Source: Escallonia rubra (taxonomy: Eukaryota > Streptophyta > Magnoliopsida > Escalloniales > Escalloniaceae). Taken from it: DNA of 64,000 bases. Location of the stretch: contig JAVXUO010001186.1 in assembly GCA_033065855.1 (NCBI GenBank), forward strand, positions 62,001-126,000, in the 5' to 3' direction. Below are positions 3,746-64,000 of the stretch, piece after piece. The notes beneath the pieces were generated by a model, which saw only the letters and a program-made list of their open reading frames with translations, made no database searches and had not been told where the DNA came from. Each line of letters opens with the position of its first letter. The stretch's first letter is position 1. The translations under genes and the position numbers were made by a program.

Positions 3746-3862
3746 TATCTCTCACATCTCTATAATACATGATAAATGGTATTGGTTGGTGCCATACAGG
3801 ATGGTCTCCTGCATCATTTGCATTAGTTGCCTTGATTTCTATTTGATTTTGAATAACTGTCA

Positions 3863-5020
3863 TTGTCGTACCTTTGTCCTTATTCCCTCGTTCTGCAATT
3901 GTTGATTGTACGCGGACAATTTGTAGAGATCAAATGGCCAGTGAGAATTTGCCAAGAAGACGTGGTTACAGAAATTCTCCTGATGCTTCCTGTGAAATCC
4001 TTGTTGAGATGCATGTCTGTTTGTAAGAGTTGGTATACTTTGATAACAAAGCCTAGTTTCACAAATGCATACCTCAATTGCAACGCTGCTCTTAAAAGAA
4101 ACCATTGTGTCCTCGTCAAGCGGTTCCTACCAGAAAGTAACAAAAGTGTCATGTCCTTTCTTAGCGACGAAATTAGCAGTGATGATCATGTCACAGAGAT
4201 CATCATACCGCACTCCAGTGAATTTCTTGAGAGGATGCTAGGTCCTTGCAATGGCATAGTATGTCTTACGGATGACCGTGATATTATCTTATGTAACCCT
4301 TCAATCAGGGACTTCAAGGTCCTTCCTACTCCTTCATTTAACTATCCCCAGGGTTTGTTTTCTAGTACATTATCTGTGGGATTTGGCTATGATCCACACT
4401 CTAGCGAATACAAGGTTATTCGGATTGCAGAACTCCACGAAGATGATGAAGACTGGGGCTACAAGTTTCATTCTGTTAAAGTTGAAATTTACAACCTGAG
4501 TACCAATTCTTGGAGAGAAATAGACGCAATTGTGCCCTACGTTTGGTACTTTCCATGTTCTGAGCTTTTATTTAATGGACATTTTCATTGGTGGGCAGAT
4601 GATGAAAATCATGGTGGCGAGTCAATGCTTTCTTTACATATCAGCACAGAGGTTTTTCAACAGATACGGTTACCTGATGTTTGTGCATTTCCTGACGGAA
4701 ACGAGAGGGCTTTTCTAGTTTTAAATGAATCCATTGCATTAGTTCTTTACAATCCCTCAGTGCAAACGTCCTTCGAGATATGGTTGATGACTGAATATGG
4801 TGTTGTTGGGTCGTGGACAAAACAATTTACTATTGGACCACTTGTACAAGTCGAGCAACCCTTACTGTTTGGGAAGCATGGGCTGCTTCTGGAAAAAGCC
4901 AGTGGCCAGTTAGTATCGTGCGACATCAAATCCCAAAGATTAAAGGAATTTCAAGTGTATGGAGCTCGAGAAAGTTTGAGGGCTCTTATTTATAGTGAGA
5001 GCTTAGTTTCCATCAAGTGA
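3863..5020 (+). CDS. F-box protein with F-box-associated domain, SLF-like
   Basis: F-box proteins are the substrate-choosing subunits of SCF ubiquitin ligases. The frame has an F-box at about residues 31-75 (EDVVTEILLMLPVKSLLR, then CKSWYTLI), followed by an F-box-associated beta-propeller-like domain to the end: GPCNGIVCL, LCNPSIRDFKVLP, VGFGYDPHSSEYKV, VEIYNLSTNSWRE, FHWWA, TEVFQQIRLPD, then ESLRALIYSESLVSI at the C terminus. This order and wording is like the S-locus F-box (SLF) group, though SLF-like genes also occur outside S loci. The expected start is the ATG at 3934 (MASENLP), matching the paralog start at 31659. Relative to that paralog there is one extra base near 3951-3955, which puts the 3934 ATG out of frame. 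The long frame only stays open from an upstream ATG at 3863 or from an internal Met in the F-box. The gene is thus nearly whole but its N terminus is doubtful. No intron is seen, as is usual for this group. Confidence 0.8.
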   Translation: MSYLCPYSLVLQLLIVRGQFVEIKWPVRICQEDVVTEILLMLPVKSLLRCMSVCKSWYTLITKPSFTNAYLNCNAALKRNHCVLVKRFLPESNKSVMSFLSDEISSDDHVTEIIIPHSSEFLERMLGPCNGIVCLTDDRDIILCNPSIRDFKVLPTPSFNYPQGLFSSTLSVGFGYDPHSSEYKVIRIAELHEDDEDWGYKFHSVKVEIYNLSTNSWREIDAIVPYVWYFPCSELLFNGHFHWWADDENHGGESMLSLHISTEVFQQIRLPDVCAFPDGNERAFLVLNESIALVLYNPSVQTSFEIWLMTEYGVVGSWTKQFTIGPLVQVEQPLLFGKHGLLLEKASGQLVSCDIKSQRLKEFQVYGARESLRALIYSESLVSIK

Positions 5021-5614: not shown

Positions 5615-7046
5615 TAGAGTTGTCAAAAGGGCCGGGCGGCCCGCGGGCTGGCCCGACCCGGCCCGGTTCTGGCCCGGGCTGGCCCGGCCCCGTCCATGAA
5701 CAGTAGCGGCCCTGCACAAGGGGGCTTGGGGCCTGGACCAGGCCTTCAGATTCTGCGAAAAAGCCCGGCCCGGCCCGGCCCGGTTTTGGCCCGGCCCGAA
5801 TCCAGCCCGGTTTTGGCCCGGGCTTGGCCCGGTTCTGCGGCCCGGTTCTGGCCCTGTAGGCCTGTTTGGCATTTTCTGTTTCATTTCTCTTCTATGTTTC
5901 CTGTTTTCTTGTTTTTTTGTTTTCTGTTGGTTCTTCTTTTTTTTCTTTGTGGGAAAGGTTTTCCCTTTTTTTTTTCCTTTCATTATCTTCCACCCAATGC
6001 ATCCATTATCCACATATCCCATATTTTAACATTTAACTAACATAGTAATTGTAAGTTGTAACAAGGAGGAGGTGGCAAGACTATAAAACATGGTTTTTTT
6101 TAATTATTTTTTATAAAATTACACAAATGTCCCTAAACTTTACGTATTTATAAAAGCACCCCAAACTTTGAGAGTCATGGTGATATTATTGAGAAACGTC
6201 TCTATAAGAATATTGTTGCTCCGCACTTAGGATAATTAGCAATCATTTTTCAGTAGACTTTCGGACAAAGAAACGTAATCTTGGGACATATTTTGAGATC
6301 GAGATTTGTGTACTATTCGAATTATACTTACAAGATTTTCTTTGATTGCACGATTTTGACAAATCTCATATTCACGTCTCTTACGAAAACAACAAGAATT
6401 GGCACACAAAAAGAAAACATTTTTTTGCTTCTCGCTTTTGCTCTAGTTCTTTTTTAGTATTGAGGAATGATAATGGTAAAATATAAGAGCGCATCAACAA
6501 TAAAGTTTTTCGAGCCTCAACCCATTATTAAAAGTAAAAGTAGCCTACAACAGTTTGCTCTATATAACCATCATTGTCGCTAAATGTTATTAGTGTCATT
6601 TTGCATGCATTCTTTTAACAATTGTTTTAGCATTACAATCGTTTTGCATACGTTCTTTTAAGAATTGTTTTAGCGTTATAAAATAAAAGTTACTAGACAT
6701 ATTTAAAAGGAAATACTCATGTAGTAACCAATTCTTTTTTCCCAATTCAAGATAAATTCATGAGGAAGTTGTATCTCTAATAAAACAACATTATGAGTAA
6801 AGAGGGATAATTATAGCCAATTAAAGAAAGAAATTACACAAAAAATATATATATATTTGGGCCCGGGCCCGGCCCTAAATATTGGGCCTAGGGCCAGGGC
6901 TTGGACTGGGCCTAGCATTTCTCCCAGTCGGCCCGGCCCGGCCCGGCCCGGTTGGCAGCCCCACAGGCCCGGCCCCGGCCCGGCCCCACAGCAGGCCCGA
7001 TGGGCTTGGGCTGGGCCGGCCCAAGCCCGGCCCTTTGACATCTCTA
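5615..7046. mobile_element. Non-autonomous hAT transposon, 1432 bp, complete ends
   Basis: The left end reads TAGAGTTGTCAAAAGGGCC and the right end, on the minus strand, TAGAGATGTCAAAGGGCC: near-perfect terminal inverted repeats followed by strongly GC-rich subterminal GGCCCGG repeats at both sides (5630-5860 and 6860-7035). It is flanked by an 8-bp target duplication, ACATTGAC at 5607-5614 and GCATTGAC at 7047-7054, the size typical of hAT. The interior is AT-rich and has no transposase. The paralogous uninterrupted target, CAACATTGACAAAAGTC, is present at 33263-33279, which confirms both borders. Open frames inside the GC-rich ends are low-complexity artefacts. Confidence 0.92.
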
Positions 7047-7101
7047 GCATTGACAAAAGTCAAATGATTTGGCTTAGGGCTGACATACACGCTACCCTTT
7101 C

Positions 7102-7161
7102 AAATTGACATGCAAATGACAACTTCAAAATAAATTGACATGCAAATGACAACTTCAAAAT
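7102..7161. repeat. 30-bp tandem duplication
   Basis: Two identical 30-bp units (7102-7131 and 7132-7161, starting AAATTGACATGC) lie in the shared F-box block. The second block has only one unit, so this is a recent local duplication. Confidence 0.9.
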
Positions 7162-8870
7162 AAATTTACTGCTAATTGCTCCAAAATTGCTTCAAGATTT
7201 TTAGGGAACATTTTTGATACGAAGGGGTTGAATCAAAAAGAAATTTTCCCGTGTATTTAGGAGGCATTTGTTTACATTTTTCATTCCCAAATTTTGCAAT
7301 GTTGATGGAAAATATGCCTTTTATTTGCTCATTTATACATCTTCGTTTTCATTTTGATTAAACGATTCAAACTATATAAAGAGAAAAAAAAAGGTGTTTT
7401 CATATTTTTCCGACTAAGTGGAAGTCTGTGTTGGGAAAATGTAAGAATAAACGACTATTTATCCTTTTTCCAAGCATTGTCTAATATGGATCACATCAAT
7501 CTTTCCCCCCATCCACTCGAGTACACAGTAAGAGTGTGATCTTACAATTCATCCTCCTCATAACCCAGCATCTTCACCGGCACACTTCTAGTACCCATAG
7601 GAACCTAGCCGATAAACAAATAAATTTAAGTGAAATAGCTACTACACCTAATTGTCCTTCTTTTATACTATGCCTATCAAGTATATGAAAAGTATTAGTA
7701 TTCCCTATCCTACCAAATTCATGTAATTGGGCACTTGAAATTTCGCTCTTTATAGTTTAGGTGGTAACATAAAGTTGTTGAAAAAATGTTTTTTGACTGA
7801 GAGCTCTATGTGGAAATTCCCTTAACTCCCTCAGCTTCTATTGACCCACAGTTTTGGAATTCGGATGGTTTTGAGCCGAGTTTGAGCTAACATTTTTTCA
7901 GTTAAATTTTAGGCCCAAAAGCAACTCAAGAGGCCTGATGCCATAAGATTAGGTTGTGTCGGGTCTCTACTAAAATCTTTCATCCAGAATTCCAGTTTTG
8001 AAACTCAGACGATTTTGGCTCGAATTTGAGCAAACCTATTTTCAATGATTTAAACAAGAAGGCTCAGAACATATGCTCTCAGTGGAAAAGTGTTCTCTTC
8101 TATAAAGCAGCCAGGACAATTCTGAGCTCGTCAGTGCTCTTGGTAGTCCTGGTATCATGACTGGAACCCTCAGTTGGGCTCATGTGTTAGGTCTGCTATC
8201 GGTCACAGGCCCATTAGACTTTCACCAAGGGCTCCGCCAAGCCTTACTATTACTTGTATATACCAATTTATAAAAGCCGCTATGTTTGAACGAAGTGCCC
8301 AGCGACTAGTGGCTTCATAACATTACAAAGATGTCGCCAAAGATATCATCTCACAAGATTCCATAGACCAATAAAATTCAAAGATAACGCTCTTGCAAAA
8401 AAATCTACTTGTACATATAGAGACATAATTAGCTCCTTACAATCTCCAAACACAAATTTATTAACTGTAGTCTCATCAAGAAATAATCAACTCTAAAGAG
8501 GACTCCGTTATCTAGCGACTGTCTCTCGTAGCCTCAACCTCGTCACTCTCATAAGTTCCGGAGCCAAAAATAGGATGAGCTTTAGAAAAGACAGAGATGA
8601 GCTAGAGGTCAGTAAGCATATATACCATGCCAAAATATGGTTTAGATTTCGCAAGCATGCTATTGATTTCATCTTAAAACTGTGATTAATTCATAAGAAA
8701 AAAAGATACACGTAATCTGTAGAAAAGTACTAATTATAAATAGGGCTAACCATAAAATTATACCCTCAACTTTACCCGAGTATAAGTTTAGTACCCAACT
8801 TTGAATGTGCAGCTAAGAAGTACCTAAGTTTGAAAAATAGCCCAAATCAGTCCCTCGACAAACGGACTAC
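7162..8870. other. Intergenic DNA, end of block A and unidentified debris
   Basis: Up to about 7340 the sequence still matches the flank of the second F-box copy (33440-33640). Beyond that no gene or complete element is recognised. 7860-8100 holds two loose copies of a TTTTGGAATTCGGATGGTTTTGAGC-like stretch. 8735-8870 looks like a stray transposon end (ACCCTCAACTTTACCC...) without a partner. Confidence 0.45.
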
Positions 8871-18872: not shown

Positions 18873-20309
18873 TGAAACCAATAAAACAACCCTAGAGGGG
18901 GTTGAACAGGGTTTTTGAAAATTAATGGAGAATTTAAACTAAGCACAATCATAAATCTCAATCAAACCAAGTAATACTTCAATGGAGATGCTAAATCTCA
19001 AGCAATTAAAGAGCAATAAGTAAAGCGATTGAATTTGAAATACTTGATAAGGATATTTAAATGGTTGGACTTGAACGACCCTCAAGCTTACATCCATCTC
19101 TTCAAGGAAGTCTCTTGCAAGAGCACTAGAATCCACTACTAACTATCTTCTTCCGGGTCAAGATCAAAACCCTTACAACACTGGGTGATATCCCCACACC
19201 GAGGACAAGTCTAATTGAATCCACCAAGCTCACCCAAGACTTGACAAACCCAAGCCTTGATCAAAATCCTTTTACAAAGATCAAATGTGTACAAAGAAAA
19301 CCTTTTGAAAGGAAATGAGTACAAATGAAGCTCTAGTGCAATAGAGAGATGAGAGAATTGATGACTTGAAGGATGCTCACTCTCAATCAAAGAATTGCTC
19401 ACAAAGATGCTCTCTTTAATGATGTAAAATCATGAAGATGAAGAGTGATAACTTTAATCTATGAGCTTTGATGTTTGTTTAGTGTATGAAGGCTTAGAAT
19501 GTGGTTTCCATCATGTATGATGAAACCCCAAATCATTTATATAGGAAGCAAATGAAATATAGCCGTTATAGGCATAATATGGTCAAAACTGCCATTGCAG
19601 TCGACTGTATTCCCAATGCAGTCGACTGGGTTCCCTCTAAAATAGCCGTTGGAGTCTTGTCCTCGAAAATAGCCGTTGGAGCTGAATTTTGACCAATGCA
19701 GTCGACTGGATTCCAATGCAGTCGACTGTATTACACTACTGCCTATCGGTGCCTCACGGAACCCCCTTTCCTATTTTGGGCATAACTTTCTCTAGAAAAT
19801 TGGATTAAGGTGCCGTTTTTTGCGTTGGAAAGATAATGAAAAGTTTTATCAGATATGAAAATATTAGCAGCAACAACAGTTTTGAGAAAATCTGAGTAAG
19901 CTCCAAAGTTCACTCATTTTTAAGAACCGCACTTGTGTGAATGGTTATGAACTCACATGCAATGCACAGGGTATCCTAAGGTCTTTTTAGGTCATAGTCA
20001 TCAATCCAAGCATCAAACCAAGACTAGTTACATAATAATAAAGATCAATCATAATCGATAGTAACTTAGTCTTTGCATTCTTTCTTACTCTTTGACATTG
20101 GATTTGATGAAGCTTCTATAGCATGTCCATTATAGCTTTTAATCTCCTTTGGCTTTAATCCATCTATCAAAATTATCAAATGTGTCTTCATGAGTGTGCA
20201 TGTATATGCCTACTAAGAATACACTCAAAGCACACATTAAAACATAATCAATGTGTAGTTATCATCAAAACAAGATGTAAGCCTAGGTTATCCAACCGTA
20301 GGGCTAACA
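18873..20309 (-). repeat. 3' LTR of the SIRE-like copia element
   Basis: On the minus strand it begins TGTTAGCCCTACGG. It contains four copies of a CAGTCGACTG palindrome near 19595-19730 and matches the right copy along its length. Confidence 0.85.
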
Positions 20310-49055: not shown

Positions 49056-50200
49056 ATGAGCTGATCCGTTGATAGCGTTAGCAAAATAGGAGAAATTGCA
49101 AACGCGGTCTGGCCATCCATCCTGAAAGGATTGACGGTCCAAATCTTTTTTTTTGCATTTTTTTTAAGTACGTCCGCTATATTATGTAGCGCAAAATTTT
49201 TTGACAAAAATACCCTCCAGCTTAAAAACAGTCCGTCCGCTACATTATGTAGCGGACTAGTTTTCAGACTTTTTTTCTCTTTCTGTCATTTATGTTCTGA
49301 CTTCTTTCTCTTTCTCTCCCTCCTTTCCTTCTTCTGACTTCTCTCTATATCTCTCTCACATCGCTTTTTTAACTTGTTTATCTTTCTCTCACCATTTTCT
49401 CTCTCATCCTCCTCTCCATCCTTTCTTATCATGTACATGGGTCGTTAGCCAGCAGTGAGACAATGAACAACCTATAACACTGGATGTGTATTCACCAGAT
49501 AGGTGTGTAGAGTAGATTGACAGAGTTGATTTATCTAAAAATGATTTGAAGGCTTAGTAGGTTAGAGTACCTTGATTTATCTAAAAATGATTTCAAGGGT
49601 CAGATCTCGAATAAGCTTCCATTGAGTCTGTAAGTCTTCAATGTCCTGAAAATGCATTGCTGATCTTTCCAGACCATCTGAGAATGACGTGCCTGCTCAA
49701 ATTCAAGAGATGGGGAAACATCACAGCTCTATCATTCGAAGAAATCCCAAAGAAAAGGACCGCCCGCCCAATCAGAAAAGAGAAGATGATATATTAGTTC
49801 ACTGGCACATCTGGACCTAGAATCCAAATTTGTTTTAGACGAGCCTTCTTCTAATTTTTTCATAGTGACGGGAAGAAAGGCCAGTCATTTCCCGGATTCC
49901 ATTCTTCATCCGCGGGAATTGTCCCGGATTCCCTTTTGCAGATCGAGAGAATACTGATGAGAGAAAGAGAAAGGACAGAGAAAGACAGAGCATTGATGAC
50001 AGAAAAAGGAGAGAGAGAGAGAGCAACATGTCAAGAAAATAATGATAGAAAGGAGAGAGAGAGAAACAAAGGTCTGAAAACTAGTCTGCTACACAATGCA
50101 GCAGACGAAGTTGGAGGGTATTTTTGTCAAAAAATTGTCTGCTACATAATGTAGCGAACGTACTTAAAAAAAATGCAAAAAAAAGATCTGGACCGTCCAC
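49055..50200. mobile_element. Small Pack-type element with GTCCGC palindromes
   Basis: Its left end (GAGCTGATCCGTTGATAGCG then GTTAGCAAAATAG) is the same as that of the large element at 57678. Inverted ends pair 49130-49290 with 50045-50196 (GACGGTCCA.ATCTTTTTTTT, GCATTTTTTTTAAGTACGT, TTTTTTGACAAAAATACCCT). Within each end lie GTCCGCTA.ATTATGTAGCGGAC palindromes. The middle carries what looks like a leucine-rich-repeat gene fragment and no transposase. The right border within the copia gag is approximate. Confidence 0.75.
49515..49660 (+). pseudogene. Captured leucine-rich-repeat receptor fragment
   Basis: The frame reads RLEYLDLSKNDFKGQISNKL followed by PLSL, the consensus of plant extracellular LRRs (LxxLDLSxNxFxGxIPxxL), as in receptor-like proteins and kinases. 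Part of the same text (VDLSKNDLK) stands about 45 bp upstream, a local duplication. A stop follows shortly. It is a small captured piece, not a gene. Confidence 0.6.
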
Positions 50201-50215
50201 ATCAGCTTGGTCCTT

Positions 50216-51044
50216 TTTCTACCTCTTAGCCACTCGAAAATGCTTCTTGAAGTGCCCACTTTTTCCATACTTCCAAGAAGCCTTTTAAGGCTTACCATAA
50301 AGCTTACCCTTTGGTTAAAGGGTAAGCTTACTATCAAGCTTACGCTTAGAGCCAATAGAAGAGCCATGGTCTACTACAAGAGCCTTGGAAGATTTGTGGT
50401 CTCCCAACTCAAGCCGAGTTGCAAGAATTCTCTTCAACTTGGATGTACTTGACCAACTATTCTATGGTCATGCCATCCTTGTTTCGTTTTAACTATGCGC
50501 GACAATCTTTCCAAGTGAAAGGTAATTTAGAAATAATTGTAGACACTTGGAAAGACTCGTCAAGAGAGTGGCTCTCAGATATGATCAGATTCATTATCAT
50601 TTGCAATTCATGTATTTGCATAATAACTGACTTGCTATCTACCATGCGGAAGTCAAATAACTTACTGATAAGGAACTTTTTGCTCCTGGTGTCCTCCGTC
50701 TTGTACTTGCTGTCGAGATCATCCCATATCGCAGTACTGTTGCCATACTTGATCTCGTACACATCATAAAGAGTGTCGGACAACCCTTCCAAAATGTATC
50801 CTTTGCAGTAGACATCATCCTTCTCCCACTTTTGCTTCTGCTTGGCAGTAGCCTGCTTGGTTGCTTCATCCGCGTTTTCTTGCACAATAGGCTTTGAAAA
50901 GGTGAACACATAGGTTATCTTCAATGTTGCAAGGAAGAAATACATCTTGCCCTTCCAATGCCTAAAGAAAAAGCCATCAAACTTTGCCAACTTGGAGATG
51001 TCATTGATCACAGGCATCTTTGCAGTAGTCTCCATCGTAGCCAA
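50216..51044 (-). pseudogene. Gag of the minus-strand copia element
   Basis: The frame starts METTAKMPVINDISKLAKFD with GFFFRHWKGKMYFFL, GYILEGLSDTLYDVYEIKY and FLISKLFDFRMVDSKSVIMQ, the copia gag of the UBN2 type. A worn zinc knuckle (YGKSGHFKKHFRVAK) follows near 50230-50280. Confidence 0.85.
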
Positions 51045-56930: not shown

Positions 56931-57634
56931 AGGCTGGACGGGCCCAAGGGTTAGACCATGACCAACTCACTCTCCAAAAGTCGTGCCCATGTCCAGCCCA
57001 GCCCATCTACGGGGCAAATAATATGTGTCCACGCCAAGCACATCAAAATTTTGGTAGACGCAGGCTGGACGCGGACTGTCCACGGGTTGTCCATGGTTAC
57101 GAATTACTTTTTCTTTTTTTCTAAAACGATTTTGAAACATATCATTGACCATTCAACTCTACAATTTATTCATGATAATGAAAAAAAGTACATTAAAGTC
57201 TTAAAATGAACTTCAATATAAGCATATAAATAAATATTTGGGACAAAATGAGAGAGAAAAAAAATACAAGAATCTCTAATTCTATAATAAGAAATAAAGT
57301 AGAAAAAGAAAAGGACAAAATGAGAGAGAAAAAAATACAAGAATCTCTAATTCTATAATAAGAAATAAAGTAGAAAAGGTAAAGTCTTCAAAGATCTAAA
57401 AAAATGAACGAAAAGTGGGAACCGTCGCTCAATCTGGTTCTGAAAAATAAGACAAGAATATGAGCATACATTTGGCTTTGAGGCTTTGACTTTCTTGAAG
57501 TGGGGGTTGAGAGTTCAGAAAGTAAAAAAAAAGAAATTATATTCTATTAGGTTAAGAGTTTGACGGTCGAGATTGCATAAACTTATGAAGTTCACGGTTT
57601 TTAATGACTAAAGGAAACAAAATAAATATATTGT

Positions 57635-57637: not shown

Positions 57638-57677
<40 letters not shown>
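57638..57677. repeat. TA dinucleotide repeat at the element border
   Basis: About 20 TA units stand directly before the first base of the large palindrome-bearing element, as at 49029-49055 before its small relative. Confidence 0.9.
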
Positions 57678-57679
<2 letters not shown>

Positions 57680-57724
57680 GAGCTGATCCGTTGAGAGCGT
57701 TAGCAAAATAGAAGAAGTTGCAAA

Positions 57725-57769
57725 CGCGATCTGACCGTCCATCCCGAAAGATGGACGGTCCAGATCGCG
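57725..57769. repeat. Terminal hairpin of the large element
   Basis: CGCGATCTGACCGTCCAT, an 8-base loop, then ATGGACGGTCCAGATCGCG: an 18-bp stem with one bulged base, about 50 bp inside the element end. The small relative has a worn form at 49105-49145. Confidence 0.85.
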
Positions 57770-57791
57770 CCTTTTTCAAAACCTGTCAGAC

Positions 57792-58103
57792 GTCCGCCAT
57801 ACAGTATGGCGGACGAGTTTTTTTTACCAAATTGCCCCTCCGCGCCTGTCCGCTACACAGTAGCGCGGAGGGCATTAATGTCCTGATGGGAGACAGCAAA
57901 AAGTCGTCCGCCATACAGTATAGCGGACGGCCCCTAGGGCTGACACCTGTCAGGGCCTGTCCCATCAGTTTTTTCGGCAATGACGGTTATCTTGTCCTTA
58001 TCTGTCACGTCAACAGTGTCCGCTATACAGTTTAGCGGACGTATAGCCATCCGCGATATTGTATCGCGGACGTAATAGCCATCCGCGGTACTGTATTGCG
58101 GAC
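57792..58103. repeat. Cluster of six GTCCGC palindromes
   Basis: Copies at 57792-57814, 57849-57870 (imperfect), 57906-57928, 58018-58040, 58049-58071 and 58081-58103 lie just upstream of the PMD gene's leader. The first is a perfect 11+1+11 palindrome. Differences in the left half are often matched by complementary differences in the right half. They are placed to act on the PMD promoter. Confidence 0.85.
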
Positions 58104-58109
58104 GTTCAG

Positions 58110-59802
58110 TATACTTGCACGCAGTAACTACGGCACCACTCTTCTCCACTCTTTCTACTCACAAAATATACACTTTCTACGCAATATCCAGTCTTTACCA
58201 CCGGCGTTGGCAAGCATATCGGCGACATTCCGGTGTTAAATATACCCTAAATCGATCACGTAAGTTCACAAAATCTACGATTTTTTGTCTGTAATATTCG
58301 GTTATGATGAATATTGCGTTTTATATATGTATGTTCTTGTTCTTGTGCAAGCGTTTGCAAAATCCGATTCCGTAATAGTATATATATTTATACATATGAG
58401 TACATATGCTAACATTGTACGTATCATTCATGTGCTAACTCGTTATATGTATTATGCATGTGCTAGCGTCGTATTTTTGCATCTTATTATCAAAATCCAA
58501 ACTGAGAAGGTTTTTCCATAATTTCAGTTGCAAAAAATGAAATTTAACCCTGGACCTGAAGACCCATCCGTGTTATACGACCAAGCTAACCATATCAGTA
58601 CGCTCATATGGGATGGTGGAGTAAGATACATTATTTATAAACTTTTCTTATTCTTACGAACGTTGTATATACCGTTGAGAGCGCTTAAATTGTATTTATT
58701 AATTCGTAGGAAAGAGAACTTGTCAACACCGTAGAAGTATCTCGCGATATAGTATCGTGGAAACTGAACACCGCCTAGAAGAGGATACTGCGTGGAATTG
58801 GGTTTGGGATTTTCACGCATGGGCAGATATTTCAACAGCTTGACCGGGCCTTGATAGGTGCCCTTGTTGAGAGGTGGAGAAGTGAAACGAATACGTTTCA
58901 CTTCCCGCTCGGAGAGCTGGCAATTACCCTAGAAGATGTAGGGTTCATCTTAGGGTTGCCGGTGACGGGGCTGCCGGTAATTGCTCCTCCGTCAGAAGCA
59001 ACGAAGACGAGAACCGCTAGGGACTTCCTCCATTCGATACCCCAGGATAAATTTAGCAGTGGTGGTATAAAGTTGAAGTGGTTGGTAGATACGTACGGGG
59101 TATTGCCGGAAAACTATACGGGCCATGAGCTTGTGCTTTACACAAAAGCCTTCCTCTGGTGGGTGATGGGGGCAATTTTATTCCCAACGACGTCGAAGAA
59201 CACGGCCAGCGTGAAATATTTACCGTTGTTGAGTAACCTGGCTGAGGTTGGAGATTATGCATGGGGTGCAGCAGTTCTTTCGTATCTGTACCGAGCATTG
59301 CACAAGGCAACGAGGCCCGACTCCAAAGCCATATGTGCATGTCTCTCGCTATTGCAGGTATATCATATAAATCATGTCTTCGTTATTGTTTTTTTTTTGT
59401 TTTCGCTTTTGTTGAATCGACGATATAAATATAATTTGTCCATTTTTTCAGGTGTGGTCTTATGAACACCTTGCTCCCGGTTCACCGACGCGTAGGGATG
59501 GAACCGATAGAGTGTGGCCTCGGTTGCGTGCTTGGGAGTACAGCCGGAATAATAGCCACTACCGCAGGAGAGTCGATCCCCATCACAACATCACGTTCTA
59601 TCGAGGGGAGTTCGACCGCCTATCTCTGTGTGATTTGCTTTCAGCAGGGGAGACTAGATATGACCGAAAAAAAACTAAGTGTTGGGGAGGGTACATTCTG
59701 CTTGGCTGTCCGCGATATAGTTTAGCGGACGTAAATAGGGCCCCAAAAAAACTAAGTGTTGGGGAGGGTACATTCTGCTTGGCTGTCCGAGATAGAGTTT
59801 AG
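58110..59802 (+). CDS. Plant-mobile-domain gene of the palindrome element, three coding exons
   Basis: The leader (up to 58259) has a GTAAGT donor; the next exon starts at 58528. Coding: exon 58537-58620 (MKFNPGPEDPSVLYDQ, then STLIWDGG), exon 58710-59357 (ILRGIGFGIF, LDRALIGALVERWRSETNTF, FPLGELAITLEDVGFILGLP, LVLYTKAFLWWVMGAILFP, YAWGAAVLSYLYRAL) and exon from 59452 (VWSYEHLAPGSP, WPRLRAWEY). All introns are GT-AG and keep phase 0. This is the PMD of the MAIN/MAIL and PP7-long-form type; host members act in transposon silencing and meristem upkeep. One TAG (58776-58778) stands early in the large exon, and the C terminus runs into the tandem array after about 59660, so the product would be altered or truncated. 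Otherwise the frame is open over about 360 codons. The host or transposon origin of the domain cannot be settled here. Confidence 0.75.
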
Positions 59803-60715
59803 CGGACGTGAAAAAAAACTAAGTGTTGGGTAGGCTACATTCTGCTTGGCTGTCCGCGATATAGTTTAGCGGACCTAAATAGCCCCCCAAAAAAAAACTA
59901 AGTGCTGGGGAGGGAGGCTACATTCTGCTTGGCTGTCCGCGATATAGTTTAGCGGACGTAAATAGCCCCCCCAAAAAAACTAAGTGCTGGGGAGGGTACA
60001 TTCTGCTTGGCTGTCCGCGATATAGTTTAGCGGACGTAAATATGACCGAAAAAAAACTAAGTGTTGGGTAGGCTATATTCAGCTTGGCTGTCCGCGATAT
60101 GGTTTAGAGATCAGAGATAGGCCCCAAAAAAAAAAGCTAAGTGTTGGGGAGGGAGGCTACCTTCTGCTTGGCTGTCCGCGATATAGTATAGCGGACGTAA
60201 ATATGACCGAAAAAAAACTAAGTGTTGGGTAGGCTATATTCTGCTTGGCTGTCCGCGATATAGTTTAGCGGACAGAAATAGGGCCCGAAAAAAAAACTAA
60301 ACTAAGTGCTGGGGAGGGAGGGTACATTCTGCTTGGCTGTCCGCGATATAGTTTAGCGGACCTAAATAGCCCCCCAAAAAAAAACTAAGTGCTGGGGAGG
60401 GAGGCTACATTCTGCTTGGCTGTCCGCGATATAGTTTAGCGGACGTAAATATGACCGAAAAAAACTAAGTGTTGGTAAGGCTATATTCTGCTTGGCTGTC
60501 CGCGATATAGTTTAGCGGACAGAAATAGGGCCCGAAAAAAAAAACTAAGTGCTGGGGAGGGAGGGTACATTCTGCTTGGCTGTCCGCGATATAGTTTAGC
60601 GGACAGAAATAGGGCCCGAAAAAAAAGACTAAGAAACTAAGAAACTAAGTGCTGGGGAGGGAGGGTACATTCTGCTTGGCTGTCCGCGATATAGTTTATC
60701 GGACGTAGATATGTA
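59660..60715. repeat. Tandem array, 13 units of about 80 bp, one palindrome each
   Basis: Each unit reads A-run, ACTAAGTG(T/C)TGGGGAGGG, TACATTCTGCTTGGCT, then GTCCGCGATATAG followed by TTTAGCGGAC, then a short variable link (TAAATAGGGCCC, TAAATATGACCG or TAAATAGCCCCCC). Three link types recur in a loose order, so blocks of several units were duplicated together. The first unit overlaps the end of the PMD frame. The palindrome here has one internal mismatch. One unit (near 60090) has a spoiled right half. Confidence 0.93.
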
Positions 60716-61077
60716 ATTTTTTTGGTCACTTTTTTTGCTCGTTGCACCTTAGGCACGCTATATAGCAAATTTCTATGAATTTCGGCGAAAAACGAGACAA
60801 TTTATTTTTTTGGTTTTTCTATGAAGGGCCTATTCGCGCACACTTTAGCGCCAAATTCATAGCTTGCGAAAATATTGTAATTTTTTATGTCACTTTTTTT
60901 TTCTCATTGCACCTTAGGCATGCTAGTTACCCCATTATAGTATGACGGATGTAGTTAGAAACATATATTCCCAACATTTTACATGCTTCAAAAGACGGGA
61001 TACACCAATTAGAATGACATGTGGATGAGTGCCGGTTGGAATGAAATCCTAGCATGCAGTAGAAAGAGATATATATA
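60716..61077. repeat. Spacer with a 50-bp direct repeat
   Basis: TGTAATTTTTT...GTCACTTTTTTT, then TTGCACCTTAGGCA.GCTA, occurs at about 60711-60762 and again at 60875-60925. No gene is seen. The stretch is likely the 3' side of the minus-strand gene that ends at 61078. Confidence 0.6.
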
Positions 61078-61512
61078 TCACTCTTCATTTGACATATACT
61101 CATCAGATAAGTACTGATCATTGGTTAAAATATTGTTTCTCTCGTTTGATGTGAGCTGCCTCCCAGTAGCCTCGGCCATTTCTTCCGCAAGTTGAAGCAT
61201 ATAAAATCGTTTTCTACGCAGCAACATCCGGTTATTCTCCATACGAATTTGGCGCACAGCTTTCTTACACTGCTTAACATTACGCCGCGACATAGTAAGT
61301 GAACGACGTTGCGGCACAGGTGCACTCAGCGTGGTGAGATCTTGGTGTAGCGCTTCTGATTCCTTAACTCGATATGCCCATTCTCTCCGTAAACCGCAAT
61401 AATACTCTCTGGGATCCGTGTACTTCACTTCTTTGTAGTCGTCGTTCCTTTCACACAACAACCACACAGTCTCACGTCCCCGCAGACTAGAACTCCCAGG
61501 AACTCCTGCCAT
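61078..61512 (-). CDS. Unknown small protein, paralog A (144 aa)
   Basis: I do not recognise the family. The frame is intact from the ATG at 61512 to a stop at 61080-61078. It reads MAGVPGSSSLRGRETVW..., with a core LRREWAYRVKESEAL, PVPQRRSLTMSRRN and AVRQIRMENNRMLLRRKR. The middle is strongly basic and probably helical (about residues 75-120). The last 15 residues are acidic (DEYMSNEE). No signal peptide or membrane segment is seen. It is homologous along its whole length with the plus-strand gene at 61900: LR.EW.YR..E.E.L, P.P......M.R and IR.ENNRM..R..R are shared. Basic helix plus acidic tail suggests nucleic-acid binding or dimerisation, which is inference only. It is divergently transcribed from its paralog. 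Confidence 0.7.
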   Translation of the reverse strand: MAGVPGSSSLRGRETVWLLCERNDDYKEVKYTDPREYYCGLRREWAYRVKESEALHQDLTTLSAPVPQRRSLTMSRRNVKQCKKAVRQIRMENNRMLLRRKRFYMLQLAEEMAEATGRQLTSNERNNILTNDQYLSDEYMSNEE

Positions 61513-61899
61513 TTAACTTTGTTTTGGTTCTAAAGCGATGAGCATGGCTAACATATATAAATAAGCCCACACACCCATACACAATATATTGGTGTGATAG
61601 CTACACAATAGTCTGTCTATCTCTTGTGACAAGACAAGTCGCTGGACATTGAAGATGACAATAGTTGGAGACAACAGCATGCCCGTGTCATAAAGTTGAC
61701 AAGTCTTTGGTGACAAGACAATTCTCTTTGGTGACAAGACAAGTCTCTAGTCTATTGCCAACGTTGGGTCACATCTCATAAAGTTGAAACTGTAGCTCTT
61801 TCATAAAGTGGTTAAGTTTCAAAGTATATATAAGTACATGCATTGCTCATTGCAAGGGGCATAGAGTGATATACTCCCAATTTCATAACAACTCTGGAA
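61513..61899. promoter_or_regulatory. Bidirectional promoter between the two paralogs
   Basis: The 387-bp gap has a TATA-like box on each side: TATTTATATATG on the minus strand (61551-61562), about 45 bp before the ATG of paralog A, and AGTATATATAAGT on the plus strand (61823-61835), about 65 bp before that of paralog B. Between them GGTGACAAGACAA and close variants occur four times (61626-61745), a candidate shared control element. No GTCCGC palindrome lies here. Confidence 0.6.
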
Positions 61900-62331
61900 A
61901 TGTCATATACTCCACGAGATATTTTTGAAGCAATGGGTCGTTACTGGGCGGGCGAAGATGAATTTTACTATTCTTTGCGTCCAAGTTTGCGTTACTCATC
62001 AAGCTATGTGAATACATTACGTGCAGAATGGTCTTATCGGATGAATGAACACGAGGTCCTAGTAGCTGATTCACGGAGCATGAATATACCCATACCTCGA
62101 CAAAAGGCAATCAACATGCCTCGAATTACGCACATGGAGCTTGAAAGGGCACTTCATCGAATACGCGAGGAAAATAATAGAATGCGAGTTCGTCAAAGTA
62201 GGCATAACTTACGTCGTATGGCACGTGATGCACATGAAGATGGCAACAACAATGAAGCACAAGTATACTGGAACATGAGCTTCGAAGAAGGAAATGTTTC
62301 CGATGCTCCAGTTTCAGATGAAGATGCCTGA
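61900..62331 (+). CDS. Unknown small protein, paralog B (143 aa)
   Basis: The family is not recognised. The frame is intact from MSYTPRDIFEAMGRYW to an acidic end (NVSDAPVSDEDA). Core text: LRAEWSYRMNEHEVL, IPIPRQKAINMPRITHME and ALHRIREENNRMRVRQSRHN. It aligns with the minus-strand gene at 61078-61512 over its full length, including the position of the Trp-Tyr-Arg motif, the Pro-x-Pro motif, the ENNRM helix and the acidic tail. The two differ at most other sites, so the pair is old, yet both frames are open, which argues for selection. Its stop codon is 11 bp from the start of a long inverted repeat, so its 3' untranslated RNA could fold into a long hairpin. No intron is evident. Confidence 0.7.
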   Translation: MSYTPRDIFEAMGRYWAGEDEFYYSLRPSLRYSSSYVNTLRAEWSYRMNEHEVLVADSRSMNIPIPRQKAINMPRITHMELERALHRIREENNRMRVRQSRHNLRRMARDAHEDGNNNEAQVYWNMSFEEGNVSDAPVSDEDA

Positions 62332-62341
62332 AGATCGAGTT

Positions 62342-62735
62342 CTATAGCGGACATAAGGGCCTCCGCTTAGGCCGGGGTTCGGGAAGGTCGGAACTAAGTG
62401 TCTGGTCCGTGCCAACCATTTTCTGGTCCAAGTTGCAGACAACCATCCCTCTCTCCTAGGTCCGCTATATAGTATAGCGGACGTCCCGACAAAGCCAAAG
62501 TCTCGAACAGTTGATTGTCCCTACGAGATGTCCGCTATATAGTATAGCGGACAGCTCCGCAGAGGGAAAGTCGGTGGTTCTACGCCCGCACAATACAGTA
62601 CGAAGCTTACGTCATAGTGGTGCAGCAGATCGTTGTCTGCAACTTGGACCAGAAAATGGTTGGCACGAACCAGACACTTAGTTCCGACCTTCCTGAACCC
62701 TGGCCTAAGCGGAGGCCCTTATGTCCGCTATGTAG
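62342..62735. repeat. 100-bp inverted repeat, about 97% identical arms
   Basis: Arms 62342-62442 and 62633-62735 are reverse complements with about three mismatches. Both outer ends carry a TAGCGGACATAAGGGCC half-palindrome. The 190-bp loop holds two perfect GTCCGC palindromes (62460-62482 and 62530-62552). It is either a small foldback element of the same family or a built-in hairpin in the 3' region of paralog B. Confidence 0.9.
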
Positions 62736-63070
62736 TAGAGCTAGAAGTTGTAGCGTTCTGCAGTTTTAATAAATTGGCTTGTTTTAGTCGCATTGTAGCA
62801 TAATGCTGTTTTAATAAATTGGCGCCCCGAAGACTTGTTTTGGCGTCAGAATCAACAACCTCAATATCGATAAACAATAAAGAACGTATGATTCACAATC
62901 AACGATCTCAATATACCGACGGAATCTCAAATGACACAATTAACGTACGATTCACAATCAACGATCTCAATATATCGAGGGAATCTCAAACGACACAATT
63001 GAGCACAATTAAGCGAGAAAAAATTTCGAGGTGATTCAACAACAACATAAATAATTTTATTAATAATAAA
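62736..63070. repeat. Spacer with a 60-bp tandem duplication
   Basis: Units at 62884-62943 and 62944-63003 (GATTCACAATCAACGATCTC in each) are tandem. TTTTAATAAATTGGC occurs twice before (62765 and 62809) and could supply poly(A) signals for paralog B. An AATAATAAAT near 63060 lies just past the B3 gene stop and could serve that gene only on the other strand. Confidence 0.65.
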
Positions 63071-63539
63071 TTAGGGTTCACATTGGGGGAAAGAAATTTT
63101 TTCACAAGTGCTCCGATCAAAGATTACAACTTGAAAATCCCACCACCCAAGGTGTTCAAACACTACAAAGTCCCCGAGTTCGAGGCCATGCTGGCGCACG
63201 AAGACGTTCCAACCCTCTGCGAATTGCTTTTTTTGGGGTCGGCCGGGCTTCAGCTTGATTTCAACCTGCCATGCCCCCTTGCGGCTATATAATCTTGCAC
63301 TGTCATGAATTGTTGTAAATTGATTGGTCAAGGCTTCCGGTATGTCCTAACAAACACAACACAAAAAATACGTTAGTTTTTAACCAAAACATCAAACCTT
63401 TAACACACGAAAATACAGAGAAATAGGGATGGCCTACAAGTTCATTCTCAAACCCCGGCATCATGACTTTGAAAAAGTGTTTGCCTGCCAGGTGCAAGTT
63501 GCCAATAAAATCGTTGGTGGTCTCCGATCCAGAAGCCAT
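63071..63539 (-). CDS. Single B3 DNA-binding-domain protein, two exons, intact
   Basis: Exon one (63539-63438) encodes MASGSETTNDFIGNLHLAGK followed by HFFKVMMPGFENEL and has a GTAGGC donor. Exon two (63346-63071, after GTTAG) begins DIPEALTNQF and continues GAWQVEIKLKPG, FAEGWNVFVRQHGLELGDFV, VFEHLGWWDFQVVIFD and CEKISF. Joined in phase 0 the product is 125 residues, almost exactly one plant B3 domain (FFKVM.PGFE, IP..F, W.V, F..GW..FV..H.L..GD..VFE, F.V.IFD). B3 domains are plant-specific, bind DNA in the major groove, and occur in ARF, RAV, LAV and REM proteins; this is closest to the short REM type. No break is seen. It sits between palindrome clusters and its promoter is full of them, so it is a candidate to bind them (inference). 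Confidence 0.85.
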
Positions 63540-63715
63540 CGAGGTCGGCGTTGAGGGGAGGACGGATTAACGCCGGAGTTCTGGGCCACCGGAGATGTGG
63601 GTGCCGGAGACGGAGTAGCGGCAGCAGATGTTCGAGACAGAGAGAGGTGCCCTCAGATAGGACTGATAACAGCTGATTTAGCGATATGATTAATATATAT
63701 AGTAGGATAGAGTTA
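63540..63715 (-). promoter_or_regulatory. Leader and TATA box of the B3 gene
   Basis: On the minus strand CTACTATATATATTAATC (63687-63704) lies about 150 bp before the B3 ATG and is followed by a C/T-rich leader-like stretch without an upstream ATG in good context. Palindrome copies begin directly upstream. Confidence 0.55.
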
Positions 63716-63718
63716 TCC

Positions 63719-64000
63719 GCCACTTTATATAGCGGACACCAAAAGTTTTTCTTCGATGACGTCCGCTATATTGTCTAGCGGACGTAAATGAATTCCAAAA
63801 GTTTTTCGTCGGTGACGTCCGCTATATTGTATAGCGGACGTAAATGAAGACCAAAAGTCATGAGGTCCGCTATATGGTATAGCGGACGTGAAAGCAGACC
63901 AAAAGTTTTTCTTCGATGACGTCCGCTATATTGTATCGCGGACGTGAATGAAGACCAAAAGTTTTACTGCTCATGAGGTCCGCTCTATGGTATAGCGGAC
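63719..64000. repeat. Second palindrome array, about 56-bp units, upstream of the B3 gene
   Basis: Six copies of the palindrome (starting near 63719, 63762, 63816, 63866, 63920 and 63978) are separated by GTNAATGAAGACCAAAAGTTTT-like links with TCTTCGATGAC. The array runs off the window. Most copies have well-matched halves (GTCCGCTATATTG then TATAGCGGAC). Confidence 0.92.

Follow-up and report, generated by a model that had tools for sequence, protein, structure and literature searches.

Introduction

Mutator-like elements (MULEs) of the MuTAnT/SaTar type insert in (TA)n in Medicago, guayule and rice, and AutoMuTAnT is described as encoding a Jittery-like transposase (PMC4486113; PMC5907723). 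Extra open reading frames are already known in MULEs, namely mudrB and vanB/vanC. Here we analysed a 64,000-nucleotide stretch of Escallonia rubra DNA (contig JAVXUO010001186.1, positions 62,001 to 126,000; hereafter the window) and found that it holds, from position 57678 on, most of a single mobile element, a MULE with terminal inverted repeats (TIRs) and five genes: a plant mobile domain (PMD) gene, two paralogous genes of an unannotated family that we call P1 and P2, a B3 gene and a transposase gene. The element also carries many copies of a 23-bp palindrome, GTCCGCTAYAYWRTRTAGCGGAC. We favour, with modest confidence, an explanation drawn from the sequence in which this (TA)n-targeting, five-gene TIR MULE of 9.8 kb belongs to a family that has multiplied strongly and in recent time in its plant host, and in which the palindrome is a duplex site for a dimeric element-encoded protein that would act in mobilisation and in expression or anti-silencing.

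Compared by description, the element is like MuTAnT/SaTar in being a TIR MULE that inserts in (TA)n and has many short non-autonomous relatives, but PMD, B3, P1/P2 and the 23-bp palindrome system do not appear in the available parts of the MuTAnT/SaTar descriptions (PMC4486113; PMC5907723). The sizes given for AutoMuTAnT (4.9 kb, with a single open reading frame) and AgS-MULE1 (5.3 kb) also contrast with the 9.8 kb and five genes seen here. The first-pass annotation of the window had likened the element to VANDAL transposons, some of which encode an anti-silencing protein (VANC in Arabidopsis). The likeness holds insofar as VANDALs are described as MULEs that carry accessory genes and, within non-coding tandem repeats, a short motif in large numbers (PMC5735166), and motif clusters in such repeats are indeed present here. 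It does not extend to the ends, as VANDALs are reported to be non-TIR elements (PMC13317346) whereas TIRs are present here, nor to the proteins and the motif: VANC is described as having DUF1985 and DUF287, and the motif YAGTATTAY as short and in a single orientation (PMC5735166), whereas none of the five gene products of our element passes the DUF1985 cut-off of 35.1 bits, the best being PMD with 14.9 bits.

From the account of En/Spm TNPA, the shared features are subterminal motifs with GC-rich and AT-rich parts, an element-coded binder and a cis role in excision and transposition (PMC2613891), the last two being predictions in our case. En/Spm differs in belonging to another superfamily, with CACTA ends and unrelated proteins, whereas the element described here has a MULE transposase and carries sites also deep inside. 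By analogy, the system may work like En/Spm TNPA or VANDAL VANC while belonging to neither. MULEs with a PMD inside them are reported from rice, grasses and Amborella, but the PMD of grasses and Amborella is described as fused to the transposase (PMC5418596), whereas here PMD stands next to B3 and P1/P2 as a gene of its own. A literature search over titles and abstract openings of open-licence papers found no MULE with PMD, B3 and such palindromes, and one that combined PMD, transposon and palindrome returned no open-licence paper.

Results

Reading the sequence on to the right of the window (L005, where L005:1 is window position 64001) gave a complete element of 9,818 bp that runs from 57678 to about 3,495 bp beyond the window end. 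The window holds its left two-thirds, and the transposase gene and the right TIR lie within 3.5 kb past it, where the first-pass annotation, which had left the class of the element open, had proposed to look for a transposase and the partner end. The left TIR (57678–57968, forward strand) aligns at 92% over 289 bp with its inverted partner (L005:3206-3493; terminus at about L005:3495), and the transposase encoded at L005:201-2495 on the reverse strand scores 111.5 bits for the Pfam MULE domain against a cut-off of 27.6. These long TIRs and this FAR1-type transposase settle the class as a TIR MULE. From left to right, the order is PMD (forward), a palindrome array, the divergent genes P1 (reverse) and P2 (forward), B3 (reverse) and transposase (reverse).

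The element ends are GGGAGCTGATCC or close variants, which are not CACTA termini. The left end adjoins an (AT)20 microsatellite, the insertion target (57638–57677), and the right end likewise adjoins (TA)n; across the 25 readable element ends, counted from our listing, 23 lie in TA microsatellites, which is targeting of the MuTAnT/SaTar type, and the two exceptions are both in locus L021. Because the insertions sit in (TA)n, a target site duplication of 8–11 bp cannot be read. Outside the TA repeats, TAAATATATTGT is present on both flanks (57623–57634 and to the right of the right end, at about position 3530 of L005), which may be chance or an old duplication.

Places elsewhere in the genome were sought with protein queries against the 566-Mb assembly that includes the window contig and to which all genome-wide counts refer; first-look places were unscored and may include other genes. 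The transposase query gave 4,773 first-look places, of which 59 were scored, at 98–100% over all 765 residues, with 52 of them stop-free. P2 gave 1,355; the 150 that were scored have identities of 96% or more, 28 of them 100% over residues 1–143, and 146 are stop-free. The last PMD exon, taken from the sister copy L053, gave 2,801, with 150 scored at 94–100%. Neighbouring contig numbers (C1285/C1286, for example) may hold the same locus twice, and copy numbers may be inflated. At least 53 of the 59 transposase places have P2 at 1.5–2.0 kb, and at least 47 have PMD at 4.4–7.3 kb, in each case in the window arrangement; the truncated PMD of the window is among the misses.

Taken by itself, the window has no partner end, as would be the case if the genes and the left end were separate insertions. 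The partner TIR, the transposase and an arrangement repeated in dozens of copies, with genes and palindromes recurring together between shared ends, rule this out, and we give it practically no weight; the single-element view of the first-pass annotation withstood the comparison. In 30 loci centred on P2, the window included, P1 is complete and open in 29 and cut by the locus edge in the remaining one, and 24 of the loci have an open B3 of two exons. These loci were picked by P2 identity, which biases the conservation of P2; P1 and B3 were not picked directly.

Further relatives share this organisation to different degrees. EC1 (~12.0 kb) and EC9a (~12.9 kb) have TIRs at both ends and all five genes; in EC9b (9.8 kb), which likewise has both TIRs, PMD, B3 and transposase are present but P1/P2 gave no match at E 0.01; a further relative, EC2, is partial. 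Because these relatives carry stops in several genes, we regard them as older or decayed copies. As the first-pass annotation had noted, a small non-autonomous relative lies in the window itself (about 49056–50231, forward strand). It has inverted ends and the same left end (89% over 88 bp, 57678 on versus 49058 on), carries four palindromes, one exact and three with two arm mismatches, and by eye interrupts an apparent copia remnant. Two further gene-less relatives, at L011:4724-6405 and 6446-7956, are adjacent with only (TA)n between them, an arrangement that resembles the non-nested SaTar arrays in guayule.

We then consider the palindrome. In the window, GTCCGC-N(0-20)-GCGGAC has 21 exact matches, against 0.01 expected in shuffles; 20 of them fall in 57792–64000 and one in the small element at 49235, and the spacer is 11 bases in every case. 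Allowing up to two arm mismatches gives 32 sites for the whole element, 26 of them in its window portion, so that the roughly 30 palindromes seen at first pass are real; as 12 of the 26 belong to one tandem array and six to an array of 56-bp period, they are not independent. Genome-wide, GTCCGC-N11-GCGGAC occurs at 19,579 sites, with two for a reversed control, and spacers of 5–20 together give 19,809 sites (control 126), of which spacer 11 makes up 98.8%. The half-site derived from 215 distinct 43-mers reads GTCCGC[T/G]AYAY, and the two halves flank a central A/T. Positions 8 and 10, outside the hexamers fixed by the search, carry 1.7 and 1.9 bits, and the Y-W-R centre at positions 11–13 is kept in 115, 115 and 112 of 117 sites. 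Three features point to recognition as a duplex: the spacing is fixed, positions 8 and 10 hardly vary, and the centre stays Y-W-R. The binder could be a host transcription factor that the element merely exploits. We consider this very improbable, as the window has no site with up to one mismatch outside the two elements.

The sites are placed in a regular manner. The left TIR contains palindromes at +115, +171 and +229, and three more follow beyond it, upstream of PMD (58018–58103, motif search). Motif and repeat searches delimit a tandem array of about 12 copies of a 77–83-bp unit with one palindrome each (59667–60713), and a cluster of six sites with a 56-bp period lies upstream of B3 (63715–64000) and runs on past the window. 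Only 4 of 112 sites with up to two mismatches fall in gene matches in four elements, against about 42 expected by length, a count in which the C-terminal part of PMD was not treated as coding in three relatives. A site lies within 450 bp of 24 of the 25 ends, and the outermost one starts at 115–118 bp in 19 of the 25, non-autonomous copies included. In four non-autonomous elements longer than 1 kb (one in the window, two in L011 and one in L016), none of which has a match to any of the five proteins, no site, of 28 in total, is more than about 435 bp from an end; a short non-autonomous element in L021 has two sites. That gene-less copies share these end positions suggests a part of the palindrome in transposition, comparable to that of TNPA sites in En/Spm. 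That the internal clusters lie upstream of PMD, B3 and transposase suggests a part in expression or anti-silencing, comparable to that of VANC sites in VANDAL.

Anti-silencing could also be the main role: an accessory protein (P1/P2, B3 or PMD) would bind the clustered non-coding sites and strip silencing marks as VANC does, the terminal sites being kept for access to the ends. Sites that are clustered, non-coding and arrayed in tandem with fast-changing spacers are what has been described for VANC targets (PMC5735166; PMC10398659), and most of the scored copies keep the accessory genes open. However, the near-fixed end distance in gene-less copies exceeds what relief of silencing would require, the VANC21 motif is given as nine bases in one orientation (PMC5735166), unlike the strict 23-bp palindrome seen here, and the DUF1985 score of PMD is far from its cut-off. 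We regard this alternative as unlikely, although it deserves more weight than any other considered here.

Variation among copies was examined at the two sites at 62460 and 62530, which lie in the 180-nt loop of a 104-nt inverted repeat (62344–62447 and 62628–62731, 96%). In 30 copies (29 sisters and the window), 50 of 61 sites have the same commonest 23 letters, and the short spacers come in 16 forms; when aligned to the window, the sites differ by 1.0–1.2% and the spacer between them by 15.7%.

Turning to the genes, the transposase has 765 amino acids from the first ATG within an open frame of 776 codons (L005:201-2528), and besides the MULE domain it has Pfam matches to FAR1 (51.2 bits) and SWIM (23.6 bits). 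Among the 120 relatives listed, the nearest are an unnamed protein at 46% and FAR1-RELATED SEQUENCE 5-like proteins of carrot and celery at about 39–45%; P1, too, has relatives in carrot. When elements are compared, the transposase ranks with the best-conserved genes, with a synonymous divergence (dS) of 0.11–0.20 between the four main elements. The dS of B3 is 0.34–0.72 in five of six element pairs, and P2 of EC9a is strongly divergent, as B3 is. Genes may have been exchanged between elements as modules.

The B3 gene (63071–63539, reverse strand) encodes 125 amino acids in two exons (63539–63438 and 63346–63071) separated by one GT-AG intron. It is open, matches the B3 family (PF02362) with 37.8 bits against a cut-off of 30.1, and has a conserved HFFKVMMPGF segment with variable sequence elsewhere.

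The PMD gene (58537–59664, forward strand) was delimited with Pfam and by comparison with sister copies, its exon limits being read by eye: exon 1 at 58537–58620 (ATG to GT), an open main exon at about 58779–59378 and a last exon from about 59452. The PMD family (PF10536, cut-off 34.9 bits) is matched by the main exon of the window with 166.8 bits and by the last exon of sister L053 with 57.8 bits. PMD is not intact in the window copy, in which homology to the sisters ends at about 59626 and the tandem array replaces the C-terminal part; L053 and L055 continue beyond this point and are full-length, L053 reaching position 346 of 347 of the Pfam PMD model. P1, P2 and B3 are open; at first pass, three of the four genes had been called apparently intact. 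An in-frame TAG (58776–58778) directly precedes the main exon. It is doubtful that this is a random nonsense change, as the older copy EC1 has a TAG at the same place and the downstream frame of 200 codons is stop-free in four elements; by eye, the TAG overlaps a possible second splice acceptor.

P1 (61081–61512, reverse strand, 144 amino acids) and P2 (61900–62328, forward strand, 143 amino acids) are open frames and, as proposed in the first-pass annotation, paralogs (35% over 78 amino acids, E 8e-16). The divergent upstream region that they share (61513–61899 in the window) is free of palindromes in all three elements that carry the pair. Neither matches a Pfam family. A profile of both found 13 relatives (E 1e-36 to 8e-21), among them proteins of carrot (16 members) and Camellia fascicularis, to which P1 is 47–56% identical. 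An AF2 model of P1 (pLDDT 83.7, pTM 0.72) has two long helices (34–61 and 79–115) and gave no convincing fold match in structure comparison. The stretch around ENNRMLLRRCR is strongly conserved and basic in P1/P2 and resembles a bZIP basic region, with an N-x7-R look that we take, as a lead only, to be a bZIP sign; P1/P2 have no Pfam bZIP match, and a profile match to the c-Fos basic region is at chance level (E 2.1). P2 is nearly without synonymous differences in 30 copies (proportion of synonymous differences, pS, 0.0007), and nearby non-coding DNA differs by 1–2%, a contrast that might reflect gene conversion in recent time or some hidden constraint. Relative to EC1 and EC9a, the P1/P2 block of the window is inverted, and the 104-nt inverted repeat that adjoins the block may have mediated the inversion. 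A second P1 family was found in the same genome with a carrot P1 query (C347:5948-6337, C2137:21383-21772 and others); two of these are open, and tens more with the same or nearly the same score have one TGA each.

Elsewhere in the window, a long open frame at 3857–5020 looks by eye like an F-box protein gene, and copia/gypsy-like frames are present.

Discussion

We propose that a symmetric dimer of an element-encoded protein would bind the 23-bp palindrome as a double-stranded site, with each half-site comprising a GC-rich arm and an AT-rich arm. Bound to the sites that lie some 115 and 170 bp inside each end, the protein would assemble the ends for transposition, those of gene-less copies included. 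Bound to the clusters that precede PMD, B3 and transposase and to the central arrays, the same protein may label the element as self and regulate or shield its expression. Judging from the sequences, the leading candidate readers are the transposase, through its FAR1 zinc domain, and P1/P2; B3 comes next, and PMD is the least likely direct reader. The transposase is a candidate because it must bind the ends, because FAR1 is a named DNA-binding domain and because its gene is among the most conserved between elements. P1/P2 are candidates because they are helical, have a conserved basic stretch and share an upstream region without sites.

Several observations weigh against this proposal. The main point against duplex recognition is covariation between arm positions 7 and 17 (z 3.1) and between 9 and 15 (z 4.6). 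Subfamily structure could cause this, and it also fits a hairpin of 10 bp with a 3-base loop, so that the palindrome might act as RNA or single-stranded DNA (as a small-RNA source, a cruciform or a product of template-switch correction) instead of as a protein-binding duplex. The near-perfect arms agree with such a hairpin; the Y-W-R centre kept at positions 11–13, where a free loop is expected, the lack of covariation between positions 11 and 13 and the nearly fixed distance to the element end speak against it, and we consider it improbable. Conservation of the hexamers (positions 1–6) is partly built in, since sites were picked with up to one mismatch there, and for the same reason the invariance of the arm hexamers, being circular, was not counted against the hairpin. 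As for the placement, five ends have their first site off 115–118 bp, at 96, 100, 111, 121 and 122, and the end at L021:2463 has none. Sites of the cluster upstream of B3 differ from the window by 5.6–9.7%, compared with 1.7–3.3% in ordinary flank, and the spacers in this cluster differ by 3.7 and 22.9%. As for the readers, B3 varies strongly between elements (42–81% per stretch, dS up to 0.72) whereas the motif does not, dN/dS of P1 and B3 is moderate (0.44–0.83), and EC9b retains sites without P1/P2, for which help in trans is possible.

A more far-reaching version of our proposal is that P1/P2 are a transposon-encoded DNA-binding pair that reads the palindrome. It would make the roughly 20,000 sites part of an independently evolved system of self-recognition, serving anti-silencing and mobilisation and unrelated to VANC, with PMD recruited to turn the host PMD silencing pathway to the use of the element. 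We put this forward tentatively and, on present evidence, think it rather doubtful.

Few systems, VANC and TNPA among them, are known in detail for how a DNA transposon escapes plant silencing and distinguishes its copies from other genomic DNA. In the family described here, open copies are nearly identical, the site is rigid and can be counted, PMD is a gene apart next to B3, and two of the proteins belong to a new family, so that direct tests become possible. As PMD is a domain linked to host silencing, the question of why an element carries one also becomes addressable.

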